The notes under the pieces: generated by a model | Database searches by the model: none | What the model was told of the DNA's origin: nothing | Seen by the model: only the letters and a program-made list of their open reading frames with translations | In this document: piece by piece, positions 1 through 42,128 of the stretch | Numbering within the stretch: position 1 is the first letter of the stretch | How the letters are laid out: every line of letters starts with the position of its first letter | Program-made: the position numbers and the translations under genes | Source of the DNA: a virus | IMG/VR virus record: IMGVR_UViG_3300048836_000644 | Span: 1-42,128 of that record | Reading direction: 5' to 3' (one strand) | DNA length: 42,128 nucleotides

Positions 1-127
1 CCCGCCGAACAGCCAGATTTCACCTGCAGCAGACGACCAATGGCCATCAGCCCAACGATTAGTTGCACCACCACCAACTGTAAGAGGGATGATATCAAAG
101 AACTCTCCGAGCTTCATAGTATTGATA
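1..127. repeat. terminal direct repeat, left copy (circular overlap)
   Basis: These 127 bases are identical to 42002-42128 at the other end. An exact overlap of this length between contig ends is what an assembler working with k-mer 127 leaves on a circular molecule, so the real genome is inferred to be a 42,001-bp circle (or circularly permuted/terminally redundant DNA). The overlap lies inside the DGR target gene; its first 17 bases are the 5' end of the variable repeat. A real 127-bp terminal repeat is possible but less likely, because a gene reads across the joint without a break. Confidence 0.9.
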
Positions 128-1095
128 TACGAACCGGAAGCAGATGTCAATCGTAACTGTGTTCTGTAATTGACACCAACAGGAGGTTTGTCGTTAGCCA
201 TCTTATTGCCTTCCCAGATATATACAGTCTCATTATTCGAGAGTATTCCCTGAACAAATTCCCATATCTGGCCATAAAGATTCTCTAGTCCTCTGTAAGA
301 GACACATTGAACAGTTGCAGATACAGCATCAAGAGTGTTTACCGCCCCTGAAGCATCTCCAAGGGAAATTGTCTTGCCTGTCTGAATGTTACGACAGTTA
401 TCGTAATTAGAGCCTGTTCCATCCAATCCCACACCAAGAACCGCCTGTATAGAAGTGTTGCCATACTCAGCCAAGAACTGCATTACAATTTTCTTTCTGT
501 GTTCGTATGAATAGAGTCCCCAATCCTTACCATTCACCTGAGCTGCTGCCCAAAACTGAGAGATGTTTAAACTACCTGTTGGCACAAGATTAGGCTTACT
601 TAGAAGAGCGCCACCGGTGACATTGCCTTTATATGCCCCTATGCACATTCCGGGAGCCTTCTTGCCGCCAATAGGGATAAGAGAGGTCCAAAGAATAGGC
701 AGGCCATTCTCTGTTGTAACCAGATAATAAAGATCCGGAGAGTACCACATTGTATGGCCCTTGGAATGGTCCACCGCAGTACCATCAATGAAGTATGCCG
801 AGTTGAGAGGATTCATCTTTGCTGCCGTACCATCATTTTTTACAAGGTATCTTCCACATTGAGAGTAATAGAGCTCCTTCATCTGCATATTGCCTATCTG
901 TGGCCAAGAGGTTGTTGTGTTGTACTCCAGATAGGTTCCCCAAGCCACTTGCCTGAGCAACTGACTTTGGCCCACATTCATCGAGTCCATAAGCTTCTCC
1001 AGGGTAATCTGCTTCACCGAGCCGGCGACAACGCATAGAATGCCCTGGTCTTTTAAAAGCTGCTGCACTGCAGCTACTTGTGCTAAATCGTTCAT
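1..1095 (-). CDS. DGR-diversified tail/receptor-binding protein (N-terminal 365 codons)
   Basis: The reading frame starts at ATG 1095 (MNDLAQVAAVQQLLKD) and is open to base 1. It continues in frame from base 42001 to the stop at 41861, giving 411 residues. The protein is the target of the diversity-generating retroelement: codons 360-398 are the variable repeat. The middle contains FWAAAQVNGKDWGLYSYEHR and a YGN-type segment, followed by an Asp/Gly-rich stretch and GEIWLFGG. This layout resembles Bacteroides phage DGR targets whose C-terminus adopts a C-type-lectin fold; the fold is inferred. The gene follows the tail-tip genes with a 10-bp gap and precedes the template repeat, so it probably sits at the tail tip or fibre and binds the host surface. 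The window ends cut it in two. Confidence 0.85.
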   Translation of the reverse strand, partial: MNDLAQVAAVQQLLKDQGILCVVAGSVKQITLEKLMDSMNVGQSQLLRQVAWGTYLEYNTTTSWPQIGNMQMKELYYSQCGRYLVKNDGTAAKMNPLNSAYFIDGTAVDHSKGHTMWYSPDLYYLVTTENGLPILWTSLIPIGGKKAPGMCIGAYKGNVTGGALLSKPNLVPTGSLNISQFWAAAQVNGKDWGLYSYEHRKKIVMQFLAEYGNTSIQAVLGVGLDGTGSNYDNCRNIQTGKTISLGDASGAVNTLDAVSATVQCVSYRGLENLYGQIWEFVQGILSNNETVYIWEGNKMANDKPPVGVNYRTQLRLTSASGSYINTMKLGEFFDIIPLTVGGGATNRWADGHWSSAAGEIWLFGG

Positions 1096-17720: not shown

Positions 17721-18028
17721 ACTCCAAACAACTCTTTTTTTATTTCTCTGATTTTCAACTCCTTTTGGCGTTGTCTTAATTGAATCTCTGCATCCATATT
17801 ACCACCTTCTGCTTGCTTCACAAGAGATACATCCATATTGTATTCTCCTATCGCAATGCCTAATTCATACATCTTCTTCAGTGGATGGTCTTCTGTTTCA
17901 ATATCATCAAGAAAAACCAGAGCACCCTCCTTGGATAGATCAAGCAAAGTGATAATTCTTGATGGAGAGTATTTTAATGCTGCCCAATTCCTTACTTTTA
18001 CAAGTATGTGACTATCATATGTTGCCAT
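17717..18028 (-). CDS. small HTH-like packaging-region protein
   Basis: A 103-residue protein. Residues 14-42 (ALKYSPSRIITLLDL followed by a spacer and FLDDI) resemble the helix-turn-helix of terminase small subunits or other packaging-associated proteins. The C-terminal 30 residues form a Gln/Arg/Lys-rich helix. It overlaps the putative small terminase by 4 bp and the methyltransferase by 14 bp. It could be the true small terminase or an accessory DNA-binding partner. Confidence 0.55.
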   Translation of the reverse strand: MATYDSHILVKVRNWAALKYSPSRIITLLDLSKEGALVFLDDIETEDHPLKKMYELGIAIGEYNMDVSLVKQAEGGNMDAEIQLRQRQKELKIREIKKELFGV

Positions 18029-19307
18029 TATACTCTAGACCATTAATTGTTACAATAATTTTTGAGTCAAACCGCTTCATTCTTTCAATTACCATCTGAC
18101 AATGTTTTGGTGTGATTTCCATTGCATAACAGTTCCTGTGAAGCTGATGAGCTGCCACCATAGTTGTCCCGGAACCAATGAAAGGATCATAAACCAAGTC
18201 GTTAATAGCTGAATTATTCATTATTGGCCTAGCCATGCACTCAATTGGTTTCTGTGTCCCATGACCTGAAACCCCCTCTCTCTCCCGGACGCTTTTTGAT
18301 GATAGGTTTTGTATATCCCACACTGACATTACATTTCTTGCCCCTTGCCAGTTGTGTCTCTGTCCCTTTTTCACTCCATACCAGCACGATTCATGCTTCC
18401 AGTGGATATCTCCCCTGGACATTGCACAAGTATTTTTATTCCAAATTATTTGAGATATAAGGCTAAAACCGGCCTCCTCGATATCGGTGGCAAAGACGTG
18501 TGTAAAAAGAGCCCCATGCCATATGTAAACTACATTACCGGGGAAGAGAACATACGCGTTAAACCAGGAAGGATTGTCATCATTTGTAACTTTGCTTACA
18601 GACTTAATCTTTCCTCCTACTTTGGCCCTCCAGCTTGGATCATAATTCACTCCATAAGGAGGATCTGTTACCATCAACATGGGCTTGGTTCCTGCGAGTA
18701 GCTTAGCAACATCCTCAGAGCTTGTGCTATCTCCACAAAGAAGACGATGCTTCAGATTACCCAATGAGAATTCGATAATATCTCCAAGTACTATATCCGT
18801 CTGCAGATCTTCCGGTTCTTCGTAATTATCTTGCTCCGCCTTTAATTCAGGTTCATCAGAGAGCATATTGGAAAAGTCCATATTTATTGGACTCATATCT
18901 AAATTAAAGATGGAAAGATCGTCTTCAGATATTTCGTACTTGTCAAACAAGATGGTATCCGGGTTCTTTTGGGCAAAAATGGAGTTCTGAGCAGCTATCT
19001 CTGCAACTGCGTCTCTTTTATCCTCTGCATAAATTGACTCGTAAGGAATGGCCGGAATGTTGTAACCCTGGCTTCTTAACTCAGCAAGTGCCTTTTTCCT
19101 TTGATGAGCGTCAATAATCCACTTTTTTCCGGTCTCATCTATCCAAACTAAAAAAGAGTACTTAAAACCTCGTGAAATAATGAGATTCTGAAGCTTTTTG
19201 TTCAGTTCCGGGTCATAGATCTTAAAATCTTCCTGAAGGTCATAAAACTCTTCAAAATCGCACACAGGGAGGTTCCCCAGGTTAAATACTCTAATTGTTT
19301 TTTCCAT
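18015..19307 (-). CDS. ParB-domain/DNA methyltransferase fusion
   Basis: A 430-residue protein. Residues 1-115 resemble a ParB/Srx-type domain (WIIDAHQRKKALAEL at about 63-77). Residues 165-415 are an S-adenosylmethionine-dependent methyltransferase: the catalytic motif DPPYG is at 215-219 and the SAM-binding motif DPFIGSGTT at 374-382. The order (catalytic motif first) is that of beta-class N4-cytosine or N6-adenine methyltransferases. No restriction gene is nearby, so it is an orphan, probably protecting phage DNA from host restriction or marking packaging DNA. It lies between the chaperone-like pair and the packaging genes. Confidence 0.88.
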   Translation of the reverse strand: MEKTIRVFNLGNLPVCDFEEFYDLQEDFKIYDPELNKKLQNLIISRGFKYSFLVWIDETGKKWIIDAHQRKKALAELRSQGYNIPAIPYESIYAEDKRDAVAEIAAQNSIFAQKNPDTILFDKYEISEDDLSIFNLDMSPINMDFSNMLSDEPELKAEQDNYEEPEDLQTDIVLGDIIEFSLGNLKHRLLCGDSTSSEDVAKLLAGTKPMLMVTDPPYGVNYDPSWRAKVGGKIKSVSKVTNDDNPSWFNAYVLFPGNVVYIWHGALFTHVFATDIEEAGFSLISQIIWNKNTCAMSRGDIHWKHESCWYGVKKGQRHNWQGARNVMSVWDIQNLSSKSVREREGVSGHGTQKPIECMARPIMNNSAINDLVYDPFIGSGTTMVAAHQLHRNCYAMEITPKHCQMVIERMKRFDSKIIVTINGLEYNGNI

Positions 19308-27105: not shown

Positions 27106-27381
27106 CTAGCTGTTAATTATCGCTTTTACCTTAGCATACGTGATGATATTTGTTTCAATATTTTGCCAGTCTGTTTTAAAGGCGAATTTTGTCCTGGGGA
27201 ATGTTGATTTAACCAACTCAATCGCCTTGTCTTTGTCACTATCTGACACAAACCAACAACTTTCAAGCGCCTCTTTCAGCTCTCTTCTTACTCTGCTTTT
27301 CTTTGTACTCATAAAACATGTTAATGCAAGTGTTACCCAGCAGATTCCCATTATTAGCACTATCGCTGCAACTGGATTCAT
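27106..27381 (-). CDS. small single-pass membrane protein
   Basis: A 91-residue protein with an N-terminal hydrophobic helix (residues 4-24, VAAIVLIMGICWVTLALTCF) and a charged, helical cytoplasmic or periplasmic remainder. It overlaps the antirepressor gene by 4 bp. It may act in the early takeover or in superinfection; no function is evident. Confidence 0.5.
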   Translation of the reverse strand: MNPVAAIVLIMGICWVTLALTCFMSTKKSRVRRELKEALESCWFVSDSDKDKAIELVKSTFPRTKFAFKTDWQNIETNIITYAKVKAIINS

Positions 27382-28172
27382 ACTGTGATAAAGTTTTCTT
27401 TAAGGAATTTATTAATGAAATAAACCTGACCACGACCCGTAACCATTGGCGTTGATGTAGTCAATGTAGATCCGTCAGGTTTTAGAATTGTTTGCTTTTT
27501 AATCTGGAATAACCCCTGCTCCATAGCTTTTTGAGATGGCTGATTCCAGTAATCGCCCTTACTAAGTAAATACCCTCGACTACGAAGGATCTTGAAGAGT
27601 CTGTTCTGGCCTATTTCAACACCTCTTTGTGTGAGAATCTTAGCCAAATCACTCACCAATACAGATGTAGATGATGCTTCAACTGCTTCAGAAAACCTTA
27701 CTCTTGGCTGCTGTGAGTGAATTACCTCCTTTAGTTCCAAATTTTGCTGGAGCGCCAGGCTCTTTTCTCTCCTCTCTTGTTGCAGTTGAGTAGCTAGTGA
27801 TATAAGGAGCTCCGGATTGGATATCAACTGTTCAATTTTTGAGTCAGTTGCAGTAAAACCAAACTTAACCAACTCTTTTATCCGATCATTGCACCAGATG
27901 GCAAACATCGGAGAGAGCCATCTTGCAAATTCGAGCGCTACATCCTCATGCATCCAGGTTCCTATCCCATTCTCAGTGGCTACCAGCTCTGACCTATGGG
28001 ATTTTCCCATAGCTTCCAGGGCGGAGAGGAAATTCATCGTTGAGGGCAGACGAAGCCACTCACCGGCACGCTTACCAAATGGCCTGGCCATCTCGGTAGC
28101 ATTAATCATAACATCACCATTCCCAAAATAGAAAGTAACGTCATTCCCATCGTAATTGTACTTCTGATTCAT
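27378..28172 (-). CDS. KilA-N/ANT antirepressor
   Basis: A 264-residue protein with two domains. Residues 1-100 match KilA-N: YFGNGDVMINATEMARPFGK, then HEDVALEFARWLSPMF. Residues about 170-262 match the phage antirepressor ANT/KilAC domain: VSDLAKILTQRGVEIGQNRL, then KGDYWNQPSQKAM and GQVYFINKF. Such proteins inactivate the phage repressor or compete with host factors, promoting the lytic cycle. It is the middle of the early operon, preceded by a 39-residue ORF in ATGA overlap and followed by the 91-residue membrane protein in 4-bp overlap. Confidence 0.88.
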   Translation of the reverse strand: MNQKYNYDGNDVTFYFGNGDVMINATEMARPFGKRAGEWLRLPSTMNFLSALEAMGKSHRSELVATENGIGTWMHEDVALEFARWLSPMFAIWCNDRIKELVKFGFTATDSKIEQLISNPELLISLATQLQQERREKSLALQQNLELKEVIHSQQPRVRFSEAVEASSTSVLVSDLAKILTQRGVEIGQNRLFKILRSRGYLLSKGDYWNQPSQKAMEQGLFQIKKQTILKPDGSTLTTSTPMVTGRGQVYFINKFLKENFITV

Positions 28173-35154: not shown

Positions 35155-36360
35155 TTACTTTACGTAATTCAAGACCTTTCTATTCGCCCGGTCAATCCGG
35201 GCGAAATCTTTTTTAATATACCCTGAAGTCACTTTATGTTCCGACACATGGTTTAAACAAAATGCAGCTTCGGATTCAGAACCCTCACATTCATTCACGA
35301 AGAGAGTTGCCCAAGTATGCCTGGCAGAATAGAAATCCAATTCTTCCACTCCTATTTCATCTCCTATATCCTTTAGATATTCATTTACTGCAGAGTTAAA
35401 TCCTGCAGCAGTTGTGTATCTATAATGGAAATTGAAAACTCTTTGTCCCAGTTTATCCCGATACTTTTCTATTAATGGCATTACTTCTGGTTCAAGTTTA
35501 ATGGATATCTCTGCTCCATCAGCTCGAACAGTTCTAGTCTTAGCTCTTTTATATGTAATTCGGGCTTCTGATATTTTTGTCACCTGATAGAGATCCACCG
35601 AATTCATTCCAACAAGATAAAAGGATAGCAAATACACATCTTTAGCAAACTGCACTGTCTCTTTTTGCGGCTGATATGCAATGAATTTTTTCATCTGCTC
35701 TAAAGACAATGCCCTCTTCTCTGGTACCTCAACTTTAGGCAAAGAGAAGCGCTTAAATGGGTTTTTAGTTATTCGGATAATATCATTATCCTCATCATTA
35801 TATTCCCTTAAAGCTGCGTTAAAAATGGCCCTCATATTTGATAGATATAGTGCCCGGCCTCTGGTCCCAACTCCGTTATTTTTTAACCATGTATCAAAGT
35901 TGGATAAAAAGGTTATAGAGATATCATTAAATGAAAGATTATCATTACCAAGATAAGCTCTTATCTTGCGGACAGATATCCCGTAATTACCCTTTGATGC
36001 TTGATTATTTTCCTCCATCCTTGAAATATGAAGCTCAGCAAACTCAAAAAAATTGATATCATCCTTCCTCTTAGAGTATAAAAAATTTGATAGATACTCT
36101 CCTATCTGAGAGACCGTCATGCCTGATAATTTTTCAAACTCAGTAGAGACCTCTCTCCTGGCTTTATTTAGATCTTCATCAATCTGGAGCTGCAGGAAAC
36201 GGTCCTTTATTTCATAGTTTTTATTTATCTGAGACTTGGTTACGAAATAGGGAGTTGAAATATTCGTTGACTTTCTTTGATAAGAAATTCTTAAATTTAC
36301 TGGCCAGGTACCATCTCTTTTTATTCGTTCAGGACGAATCACCATTTTTAAAGTAATCAT
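35155..36360 (-). CDS. int: tyrosine integrase (IntDOT-like)
   Basis: A 401-residue site-specific recombinase. Residues 1-80 resemble an arm-binding domain, 105-195 a core-binding SAM-like domain, 215-390 the catalytic domain. Catalytic candidates: Arg347-His348 (YSARHTW), His371 (NHVSEHK) and the nucleophile Tyr381 (GYIKKD). The usual Arg I position is Val250 (LSFYLVGMNSVDL), as in IntDOT relatives that use a different Arg. It integrates and, with a directionality factor, excises the prophage. The attP lies 190-350 bp upstream of its start codon. It is convergent with the cargo operon (79-bp gap). Confidence 0.92.
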   Translation of the reverse strand: MITLKMVIRPERIKRDGTWPVNLRISYQRKSTNISTPYFVTKSQINKNYEIKDRFLQLQIDEDLNKARREVSTEFEKLSGMTVSQIGEYLSNFLYSKRKDDINFFEFAELHISRMEENNQASKGNYGISVRKIRAYLGNDNLSFNDISITFLSNFDTWLKNNGVGTRGRALYLSNMRAIFNAALREYNDEDNDIIRITKNPFKRFSLPKVEVPEKRALSLEQMKKFIAYQPQKETVQFAKDVYLLSFYLVGMNSVDLYQVTKISEARITYKRAKTRTVRADGAEISIKLEPEVMPLIEKYRDKLGQRVFNFHYRYTTAAGFNSAVNEYLKDIGDEIGVEELDFYSARHTWATLFVNECEGSESEAAFCLNHVSEHKVTSGYIKKDFARIDRANRKVLNYVK

Positions 36361-40204: not shown

Positions 40205-40765
40205 TTATTCAAAGTAATAATCAGCTTTATTGTTATTTCCTGTCCTGCGCTTGATAGTCGCTTTAAAAGGAAAACACTCATTCTCCCGGCATTGGTCCAG
40301 AATGTCTTTTATCTTATAGTTATTGGTGATGAACTTACACTCTCTGCCTGCCACCTCAATAAGAACAGCATATCTGTCTCCTCCGTTCTTTGTCTGCACC
40401 CCTGTCTCAAAATCCTTTACCACAACCTCCTGATTGAGAATGTCCATCAATGTTCTCACCTCTACATCAAAGAAGCGTTTTCCATCCTTACCCACGCTCT
40501 TCGCTTTTACATTCAGTTCGTTAAAATTCTTCATACCGGTTACTTTTCTCCATAAATTCCTGCAGTCTCCGGACATACACCATCCTTTGTAACTGCACAG
40601 AATCTCATATTTCCTACTATTATCTGTTATCTGCGAGAGTTTCCTCGCAAATCGTTGTTTCATGTCTTTACGCAGCAAGGTCTTGTTGTGACTGAACCTG
40701 TACCCCAGGAAGTCCACAGACCGGCCTCTTTGCTCCTCTTTTGCGCTTTCGTGTCTTTGTCTCAT
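40205..40765 (-). CDS. DGR reverse transcriptase, C-terminal part with extension (second frame)
   Basis: A 186-residue frame. Residues 14-75 (RGRSVDFLGYRFSHNKTLLR, then SYKGWCMSGDCRNLWRKV) are the thumb region of the reverse transcriptase, displaced by +1 relative to the upstream frame. Residues 78-186 (MKNFNELNVKAKSVGKDGKR onward) form an additional alpha/beta domain with KKFITNN-like FITNNYKIKDIL; I have seen related extensions in Bacteroides DGR enzymes and they may bind nucleic acid. An ATG at 40765 could start it alone, but it lacks the catalytic domain. Probably one protein of about 450 residues split by an indel. Confidence 0.8.
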   Translation of the reverse strand: MRQRHESAKEEQRGRSVDFLGYRFSHNKTLLRKDMKQRFARKLSQITDNSRKYEILCSYKGWCMSGDCRNLWRKVTGMKNFNELNVKAKSVGKDGKRFFDVEVRTLMDILNQEVVVKDFETGVQTKNGGDRYAVLIEVAGRECKFITNNYKIKDILDQCRENECFPFKATIKRRTGNNNKADYYFE

Positions 40766-41558
40766 TCTTTACCTCTACCCCTACCGGAAAAACCGCATAG
40801 TTTGGCTTGATTATTAAATTAAGTTCATTGGCCACTACCTCGTTCACAGCATTAAATATCTCCCACATCCGCTCTTTGCTTTCTCCCAGGAACACCATGT
40901 CATCACAATACCTGAAATAATATTTTACCCGAAGATTCTCCTTGATGAAGTGATCAAGAGCACTCACCGCATAGTTAGCCAGGAGTTGACTGGTATATGA
41001 ACCAATAGGCAGCCCTCTATCTGTTGAACATATCACTTCACTAATAAGGGAGATGAACTTCTCATCCTTGAATTTCCTTTTCAGATGAGAGATTAATACC
41101 TGTTGGTCTATGTTGGGATAGAACTTTTGAATATCAATTTTAAGACACCATCTGGAGCCCTTCTGGTCACTCATAGCCCTTTTTACCCTGCTCACCGCCA
41201 ACGACACTCCACGCCCATTAATACAGGCGTAGGTGTCATATATGAGCGACTTTGTAAGTATAGGATTGATGACTCTCATGATAGCATGATGGAGTATCCT
41301 GTCCGGGAAGAAAGGAAGCTTGTGAATCTCTCTTACCTTGCCTCTGTCTGCCACTATGGTCATGGTTCGATATTCGGAGGTTTTGAAAGTGCCCTCAATG
41401 AGCTGCTGTTGTAGCTGAAGAAGCTTGGCCTCAGAGTTCTTCAGGAAGAGTCTCACACCATACGAAGTCTTTTTCTTACCGCGAGCCGCCTCTTGTGCCG
41501 CCATGGTAAGATTCTCAATTGAGTAGATCTGCTCGTATATGTGTCCTATTCTCTTCAT
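40668..41558 (-). CDS. DGR reverse transcriptase, catalytic part (frame broken)
   Basis: A 296-residue frame; residues 1-272 are genuine enzyme. Motif A is LKIDIQKFYPNID (Asp142), the DGR-specific motif 4 IGSYTSQ is at 185-191, and motif C RYCDDM has YCDD at 217-220. The DGR class is shown by IGSYTSQ. The last 24 residues are frame-shifted; an A4 run at 40739-40742 (minus) is the likely indel, since removing one A would give RKE and join to SVDFLGYRF. It copies the template repeat RNA, misreading A, and delivers the cDNA into the target gene. No avd-like accessory gene was found beside it. Confidence 0.88.
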   Translation of the reverse strand: MKRIGHIYEQIYSIENLTMAAQEAARGKKKTSYGVRLFLKNSEAKLLQLQQQLIEGTFKTSEYRTMTIVADRGKVREIHKLPFFPDRILHHAIMRVINPILTKSLIYDTYACINGRGVSLAVSRVKRAMSDQKGSRWCLKIDIQKFYPNIDQQVLISHLKRKFKDEKFISLISEVICSTDRGLPIGSYTSQLLANYAVSALDHFIKENLRVKYYFRYCDDMVFLGESKERMWEIFNAVNEVVANELNLIIKPNYAVFPVGVEVKNETKTRKRKRGAKRPVCGLPGVQVQSQQDLAA

Positions 41559-41677: not shown

Positions 41678-41793
41678 TTTTAAAGTTAGCTGAGCCCCGA
41701 TGTTCGAATTCGCATTCGAGAAAACGTTATTCGCATTCGAAGCTGACAAGCTGCATATCGAACCGTTATTCGCGTTCCCGCCGAACAGCCAGA
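41678..41793 (-). repeat. DGR template repeat (TR)
   Basis: 116 bp; aligned at offset 225 to the VR with 20 mismatches. All 20 are T on the plus strand, that is A on the minus (template) strand; the other 86 non-A positions and 10 A positions are identical. In target frame TR would read Asn-rich codons (AAC, AAT), the classic layout for maximal diversity. The 3' edge near 41678-41688 is less certain because only A positions differ there by chance. Confidence 0.93.
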
Positions 41794-41815
41794 GCATTTA
41801 ACTCCACGCCACCCA

Positions 41816-41831
41816 CCGAGATTTCTCCCGG
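41816..41831 (-). other. GAAA-tetraloop hairpin between target and TR
   Basis: On the minus strand CCGGGA-GAAA-TCTCGG folds into a 6-bp stem (one G-T pair) with a GAAA tetraloop. Hairpins with GAAA loops near the VR are required for target recognition in the Bordetella phage DGR, so this is a strong candidate for the same role, though it lies downstream of the stop codon. Confidence 0.5.
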
Positions 41832-41838
41832 GTTTACA

Positions 41839-41855
41839 GCCGCCTTAAAGGCGGC
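41839..41855 (-). other. GC hairpin directly after the target stop codon
   Basis: GCCGCC and GGCGGC, with T-A pairs, form a 7-bp stem with a 3-base loop, 5 bp beyond the target stop at 41861 (minus strand). No T-run follows, so a rho-independent terminator is unlikely; a cruciform for DGR retrohoming or an RNA processing signal is possible. Confidence 0.5.
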
Positions 41856-41860
41856 ATGCC

Positions 41861-42128
41861 TTATACATTCAACTGCGCTCCTGATACAATCTTCAAGCTG
41901 CCATAGAAAGCAAGCCGAGCCCCGAGGGACGAACCCGCATCCGAGAAAACGCCAAGCGCATCCGAAGCCGACAAGCCGCATATCGAACCGTTATTCGCGT
42001 CCCCGCCGAACAGCCAGATTTCACCTGCAGCAGACGACCAATGGCCATCAGCCCAACGATTAGTTGCACCACCACCAACTGTAAGAGGGATGATATCAAA
42101 GAACTCTCCGAGCTTCATAGTATTGATA
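41861..42128 (-). CDS. DGR-diversified tail protein (C-terminal part, across the junction)
   Basis: The frame runs from the left terminal part (1-1095) through the junction to TAA at 41861. The unique C-terminal bit (42001-41861) encodes 46 residues, beginning DANNGSICGLSASDALGVFS and ending QLNV; bases 42002-42128 repeat 1-127. Codons 360-398 are the variable repeat. Diversified codons include AAC to GAC, AAT AAC to CTT GGC, AAC to TCC. The residues GARLAFYGSLKIV at the end resemble the last strand of a C-type-lectin-like fold. Confidence 0.85.
   Translation of the reverse strand, partial: INTMKLGEFFDIIPLTVGGGATNRWADGHWSSAAGEIWLFGGDANNGSICGLSASDALGVFSDAGSSLGARLAFYGSLKIVSGAQLNV
41903..42018 (-). 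repeat. DGR variable repeat (VR)
   Basis: 116 bp inside the target gene 3' end, spanning the circular joint (42002-42018 equals 1-17). Twenty of 116 bases differ from the TR, all at template adenines, with A changed to G, C or T. Amino acid results include N to D, N to G, N to L, N to S, I to L, Q to R, T to A. This is the signature of repeated mutagenic retrohoming. Confidence 0.93.
42002..42128. repeat. terminal direct repeat, right copy (circular overlap)
   Basis: Exact copy of bases 1-127; see the left copy. It lets the target gene be read across the joint without a frame change. Confidence 0.9.

Follow-up and report, generated by a model that had tools for sequence, protein, structure and literature searches.

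The diversity-generating retroelement (DGR) of a gut Bacteroidales phage encodes its reverse transcriptase (RT) in two overlapping reading frames. We lean towards reading this enzyme as a natural split polymerase, in which two separately initiated polypeptides in the window (the whole 42,128-nt stretch analysed), or three in relatives, where the palm is also cut between motifs A and B, would make up one mutagenic RT. As a DGR the element is unremarkable; what sets it apart is the split RT. On its own, the two-frame RT, which the first-pass annotation of this DNA had overlooked, would have suggested a dead element. Coordinates of all features are collected in Table 1.

Table 1. Features of the DGR and of the circular record in the window (., no strand).
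Feature	Position	Strand	Remarks
TR, 116 nt, 30 A	41678..41793	-	Core same in relatives L014 and L015
VR, 3' end of target gene	41903..42018	-	Departs from TR at 20 positions, each a template A
IMH-like VR 3' end	41903..41920	-	Differs from TR alike in all related VRs
RT ORF1, 296 aa, fingers and palm	40668..41558	-	Pfam RVT_1 2.6e-19; PHROG 1423 3.3e-95
RT ORF2, 186 aa, thumb (VDFLGYRF...) and C-terminal domain	40205..40765	-	PHROG 1423 and 19665
ORF1/ORF2 overlap	40668..40765	-	ATG at 40763-40765
ORF2 C-terminal domain	40208..40537	-	Also fused to unsplit Hankyphage-type RTs
Terminal direct repeat, 127 nt	1..127	.	Identical to 42002-42128
Terminal repeat, second copy	42002..42128	.	Closed circle, 42,001 nt
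Target (tail) protein, C-terminal part	41861..42128	-	PHROG 5302 tail protein, E=1.3e-47
Target (tail) protein, N-terminal part	1..1095	-	Continues from 41861..42128 over the circular join
Perfect hairpin GCCGCCTT-T-AAGGCGGC	41839..41855	-	47 nt after VR, just beyond target stop codon

Read on the minus strand, the TR and VR differ at 20 of 116 positions, all 20 of them TR adenines (A to G 11, A to T 5, A to C 4), and the 86 positions outside the 30 TR adenines are identical. The probability that 20 random differences all hit the 30 TR adenines is 2.1e-15, in line with the argument of the first-pass annotation against random divergence. The coordinates and counts that it gave for the pair were exact on recomputation. 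So were its observations that the diversified codons are mostly Asn (AAT/AAC in the TR at changed sites) and that the order is target, hairpin, TR, RT on the minus strand. Its wording that the pair “proves” a DGR was a little strong, retrohoming not having been observed; a DGR is supported on sequence grounds because the A-only pair occurs together with a BPP-1-like RT fold and profile, the IGxxxSQ motif, a VR in a tail gene and relatives' VRs that differ at A. Variants at non-A positions in most related VRs, which that annotation had named as speaking against a DGR, are not what we found: TR/VR pairs were measured at 32 loci, all but one of which have a split RT, and 515 of their 524 mismatches lie at template A. 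Among the rare non-A changes, L015 (VR 2252-2350) has CT in place of GG close to the IMH, and L119 (BI-TP1) has one T to G. We found no second VR elsewhere in the 42,001-nt circle.

The differences within the window's pair appear to be of two kinds. Relatives L014 and L015 (85% RT identity) have the same TR core as the window, and at TR positions 103-116 and at A 42 and A 50 their VRs match, or almost match, the change in the window; the VR of L024 likewise has those at the 3' end. About 7 of the 20 differences would thus be fixed and common to related VRs, mostly at the 3' initiation end, rather than fresh mutagenesis, since the same changes recur in the relatives. The IMH-like 3' end is probably not overwritten, because all related VRs depart from the TR alike at this end, and the fixed differences correspond to that between IMH and IMH* known from BPP-1. 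Other template adenines differ among the VRs of the window, L014 and L015, and the remaining 13 or so differences look like mutagenesis products.

The VR ends a tail protein gene of 411 aa in all, whose ORF crosses the circular join and for which searches by sequence found neither a Pfam family nor a PDB match. Its identical terminal repeats show that the record is a closed circle. The base at which the contig begins, 42002, adjoins the outermost template adenine (42001); this would be expected if the sample held several VR variants that interrupted the assembly graph at this point with k=127. The VR is followed by a hairpin that none of 200 shuffles equalled. A hairpin after the VR is absent or weak in many relatives, and we therefore ruled it out as a universal feature. 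Elsewhere, the record encodes a KilA-N/KilAC antirepressor and a phage integrase at 27378-28172 (-) and 35155-36360 (-), so the phage is probably temperate, and a DNA methyltransferase (N6_N4_Mtase) at 18015-19307 (-).

The RT beside the TR belongs to the DGR clade, with the DGR-type IGxxxSQ motif as IGSYTSQ, the YCDD motif and BPP-1 DGR RT (8ub7) as the best profile match of its pieces (E=3e-67). The single intact RT ORF of other DGRs is missing here; because split-RT relatives keep changing their VR, we regard such an ORF as usual rather than strictly defining. ORF1 ends in a basic tail (TRKRKRGAKR). ORF2 lies in the +1 frame relative to ORF1 and begins at a conserved ATG, and in the overlap the thumb frame is constrained from about GRSVDFLGY onward. 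Stitched together, ORF1 and ORF2 model as a complete DGR-type RT (pLDDT 88.9) whose best PDB match is likewise 8ub7 (TM 0.90 by target length) and whose junction, at about residues 260-279, is a low-confidence loop. The C-terminal domain of ORF2, about 110 aa, yields mostly OB folds among its PDB fold matches (PrgE, SSB, RecG, Teb1), none of them significant (best E=0.06); these weak fold matches suggest an OB-like domain that may be nucleic-acid-binding-like. The record has no match to Avd (PF05635), for which this domain may stand in.

About 25 related lineages encode the RT in two or three overlapping ORFs, always with a +1 step, and almost all of them have an intact A-only TR/VR. The window, L014, L015 and L044 share the two-ORF form, broken only before the thumb (break 2). 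In most split relatives a second break, in the palm before RGxPIGAxxSQ (break 1), yields three ORFs in frames 0, +1 and +2. The downstream piece is in the +1 frame in the four two-ORF RTs and throughout the three-ORF clade (32 tree rows), with no exception. RTs with the same C-terminal domain are unsplit in L024 and Hankyphage, and in about 60 other DGR RTs neither break site interrupts the reading frame. In the sampled Bacteroidaceae genomes the unsplit RT is commoner, and one further three-piece RT was found. A scan of genome contigs gave no match with ORF1 as the query and gave matches with an alignment as the query. In the tree, the three-piece RTs group together as one clade (100/99). The window group adjoins unsplit L024 (90/88), with L044 placed elsewhere, but a topology in which all split RTs are monophyletic is not rejected (p-AU 0.26). 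A basic motif, RKRKRG/RKRQRG, closes the upstream piece in split RTs generally, with small variations, and suggests a single origin of the thumb break followed by later re-fusion.

Some RTs in this set are irregular in other ways. L107 has an extra +2 frame change in its first RT piece, around 2845-2851, that is missing in its sister L111 and is either a true lesion or a sequencing error. The Hankyphage jmh47_hp record (L022, marked UNVERIFIED) has an early RT frame break, unlike the other Hankyphages that we read, which is probably a real lesion or an error. L048 and L049 (3501-3872) match only part of the thumb and C-terminal domain, with no recognisable upstream RT in our search.

A broken RT frame might simply be a pseudogene or an assembly error, and the A-only pair a relic; a frameshifted Bacteroides DGR RT was listed in DiGReF (2012, PMC3521204) as inactivated, and this was taken to be recent. 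We rejected this explanation, which we consider extremely improbable, on three grounds. The same break recurs at about 40% identity in independent viral contigs, in Bacteroides, Muribaculaceae and other Bacteroidales genomes, and in cultured LoVEphages. Both frames are under constraint: substitutions between close pairs fall mostly at codon position 3 of the upstream frame before the hand-over and of the downstream frame after it, and because this pattern switches frame at the hand-over, both frames are used and the RT has not decayed. The VR, too, varies where a working RT would alter it. We compared eight LoVEphage copies, two of them prophages and six phage records, that are nearly identical and have a three-ORF RT. 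Neither the TR nor the part of the target upstream of the VR varies among them, and of 1,544 RT columns 9 vary, all outside the overlaps. The VR of the same copies differs at 24 of 122 sites, 23 of which are template A. The VRs of split-RT phages thus appear to keep changing at A, so that the split RT would not be dead. The cassette of the window phage looks functional, and we infer that its DGR is active now.

Use of both frames by itself fits either a ribosome that shifts frame or two separate proteins; the start codons discriminate between them. At break 2, 19 of 20 lineages have an ATG that is open in the downstream frame, and at break 1, 16 of 18 do; the unused third frame has one in 1/20 and 1/18. 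Unsplit RTs have one at the same sites in 9 of 63 cases (break 2) and 15 of 61 (break 1), these controls being without the insert and their windows not strictly comparable to those of split RTs. With the upstream peptide held fixed, the excess of ATGs has P=7.6e-6 at break 2 and P=1.6e-3 at break 1, under a simple codon model that takes the lineages as independent. When GTG and TTG are included, a start codon is present in all lineages (20/20 and 18/18, respectively). The upstream residue under the ATG is D, N, H or Y, its codon always ending in T, and only the nucleotides are shared. A stop codon in the downstream frame often stands just before the start (TAA AGA ATG in the window), slightly closer than expected. 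At both breaks, moreover, split RTs carry an insert of about 15-20 codons that unsplit RTs lack.

It is possible, if rather unlikely, that the RT is instead a single polypeptide made by +1 programmed ribosomal frameshifting, once in the window and twice in the three-ORF relatives, as Benler et al. (2021, PMC8008677) put forward for Quimbyvirus. In its favour, conservation switches abruptly from the frame of the upstream ORF to that of the downstream one, the step at either break is +1 without exception, and the stitched sequence is modelled as one intact fold. The conserved slippery site that such a mechanism would lead one to look for was not found: no slippery hexamer or heptamer is shared among the split lineages, and an in-frame XXX_X quartet is missing in 7/21 and 12/17 lineages. 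Frameshifting also leaves unexplained the start codons kept at both breaks and the inserts. Separate subunits have difficulties of their own. The upstream frame is constrained right to the hand-over, which frameshifting explains at least as well, and the upstream ORF ends at variable, sometimes long distances (windows of 41-368 nt). A selection test on the stop codons of the upstream ORFs gave opposite signs at the two breaks. A full-length frameshift product made alongside an internally started thumb/C-terminal protein would cover both the sharp hand-over and the kept ATGs, but it is more complex and we think it improbable. We favour separate subunits over frameshifting because start codons are kept, no slip sequence is common and inserts mark the breaks. 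It is thus probable, as judged from comparative evidence, that ORF2 is separately initiated and that the pieces are subunits assembling into one RT; their separate synthesis and mutual binding are what we infer from these patterns.

In the mechanism we propose, reverse transcription of TR RNA would place random bases opposite A, and the resulting cDNA would replace the VR and thereby diversify the C-terminus of the tail protein. ORF1 would supply the fingers and palm, and ORF2 the thumb together with the nucleic-acid-binding-like C-terminal domain. Translation of ORF2 would start at its own internal ATG, and the two polypeptides would come together as a single enzyme. Most relatives have one more cut, in the palm, and hence three pieces, and the insert at a break would provide one piece with its tail and the next with its start. 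DGRs are used for mutagenesis in vivo, and they influence which hosts common gut phages can infect. If the RT is indeed naturally made in parts, it would be, as far as the literature we searched shows, the first split RT of its kind; a controllable mutator could then be divided at its natural cut points, and RTs of Bacteroidales phages that look broken ought not to be written off as dead. Gene callers give the RT label to the first piece alone and call the others hypothetical.

Among the closest described systems is the DGR of Quimbyvirus, likewise a Bacteroides phage, whose RT lies in overlapping ORFs in three frames, with A-only VR variation and two proposed programmed frameshifts (Benler et al. 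2021, PMC8008677). The window shares its RT pieces in successive frames and its A-only VR variation, with two ORFs in place of three. The DGRs of LoVEphage, PV4-TP1 and BI-TP1 are arranged like that of the window, with a tail-protein target followed by the TR and a split RT bearing the same C-terminal domain. Their RT is in three pieces, to which window ORF1 is about 42% and ORF2 48-49% identical, and which are annotated only as “reverse transcriptase” and hypothetical proteins. Frameshifted DGR RTs go unmentioned in the literature on LoVEphage, in the 2025 work on gut temperate phages and in the global DGR survey.

Hankyphage p00 (Benler et al. 2018, PMC6199706) has the same C-terminal domain fused to a DGR RT and a TR/VR of about 117 nt; unlike that of the window, its RT is one 434-aa ORF without the insert at the break. 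BPP-1 shares with the window the mutagenic RT fold, A-specific change and a hairpin after the VR (PMC3240598). It has a single-ORF RT and Avd, whereas the window has a split RT and no Avd by PF05635, and its hairpin, with a GRNA loop 4-34 bp from the VR, contrasts with the perfect palindrome at 47 nt in the window (PMC3240598). For a palm in two pieces, comparable to break 1 of the relatives, the Splipalmivirus RdRp (PMC11405419) offers a precedent by analogy only: it belongs to an RNA virus, its pieces lie on separate segments and the enzyme is unrelated to DGR RTs. Set against these systems, the new points are that the RT also occurs as two ORFs, how widely the trait is spread and how it is distributed in the phylogeny, the set of LoVEphages with an active DGR, and evidence from start codons that counts against frameshifting alone.
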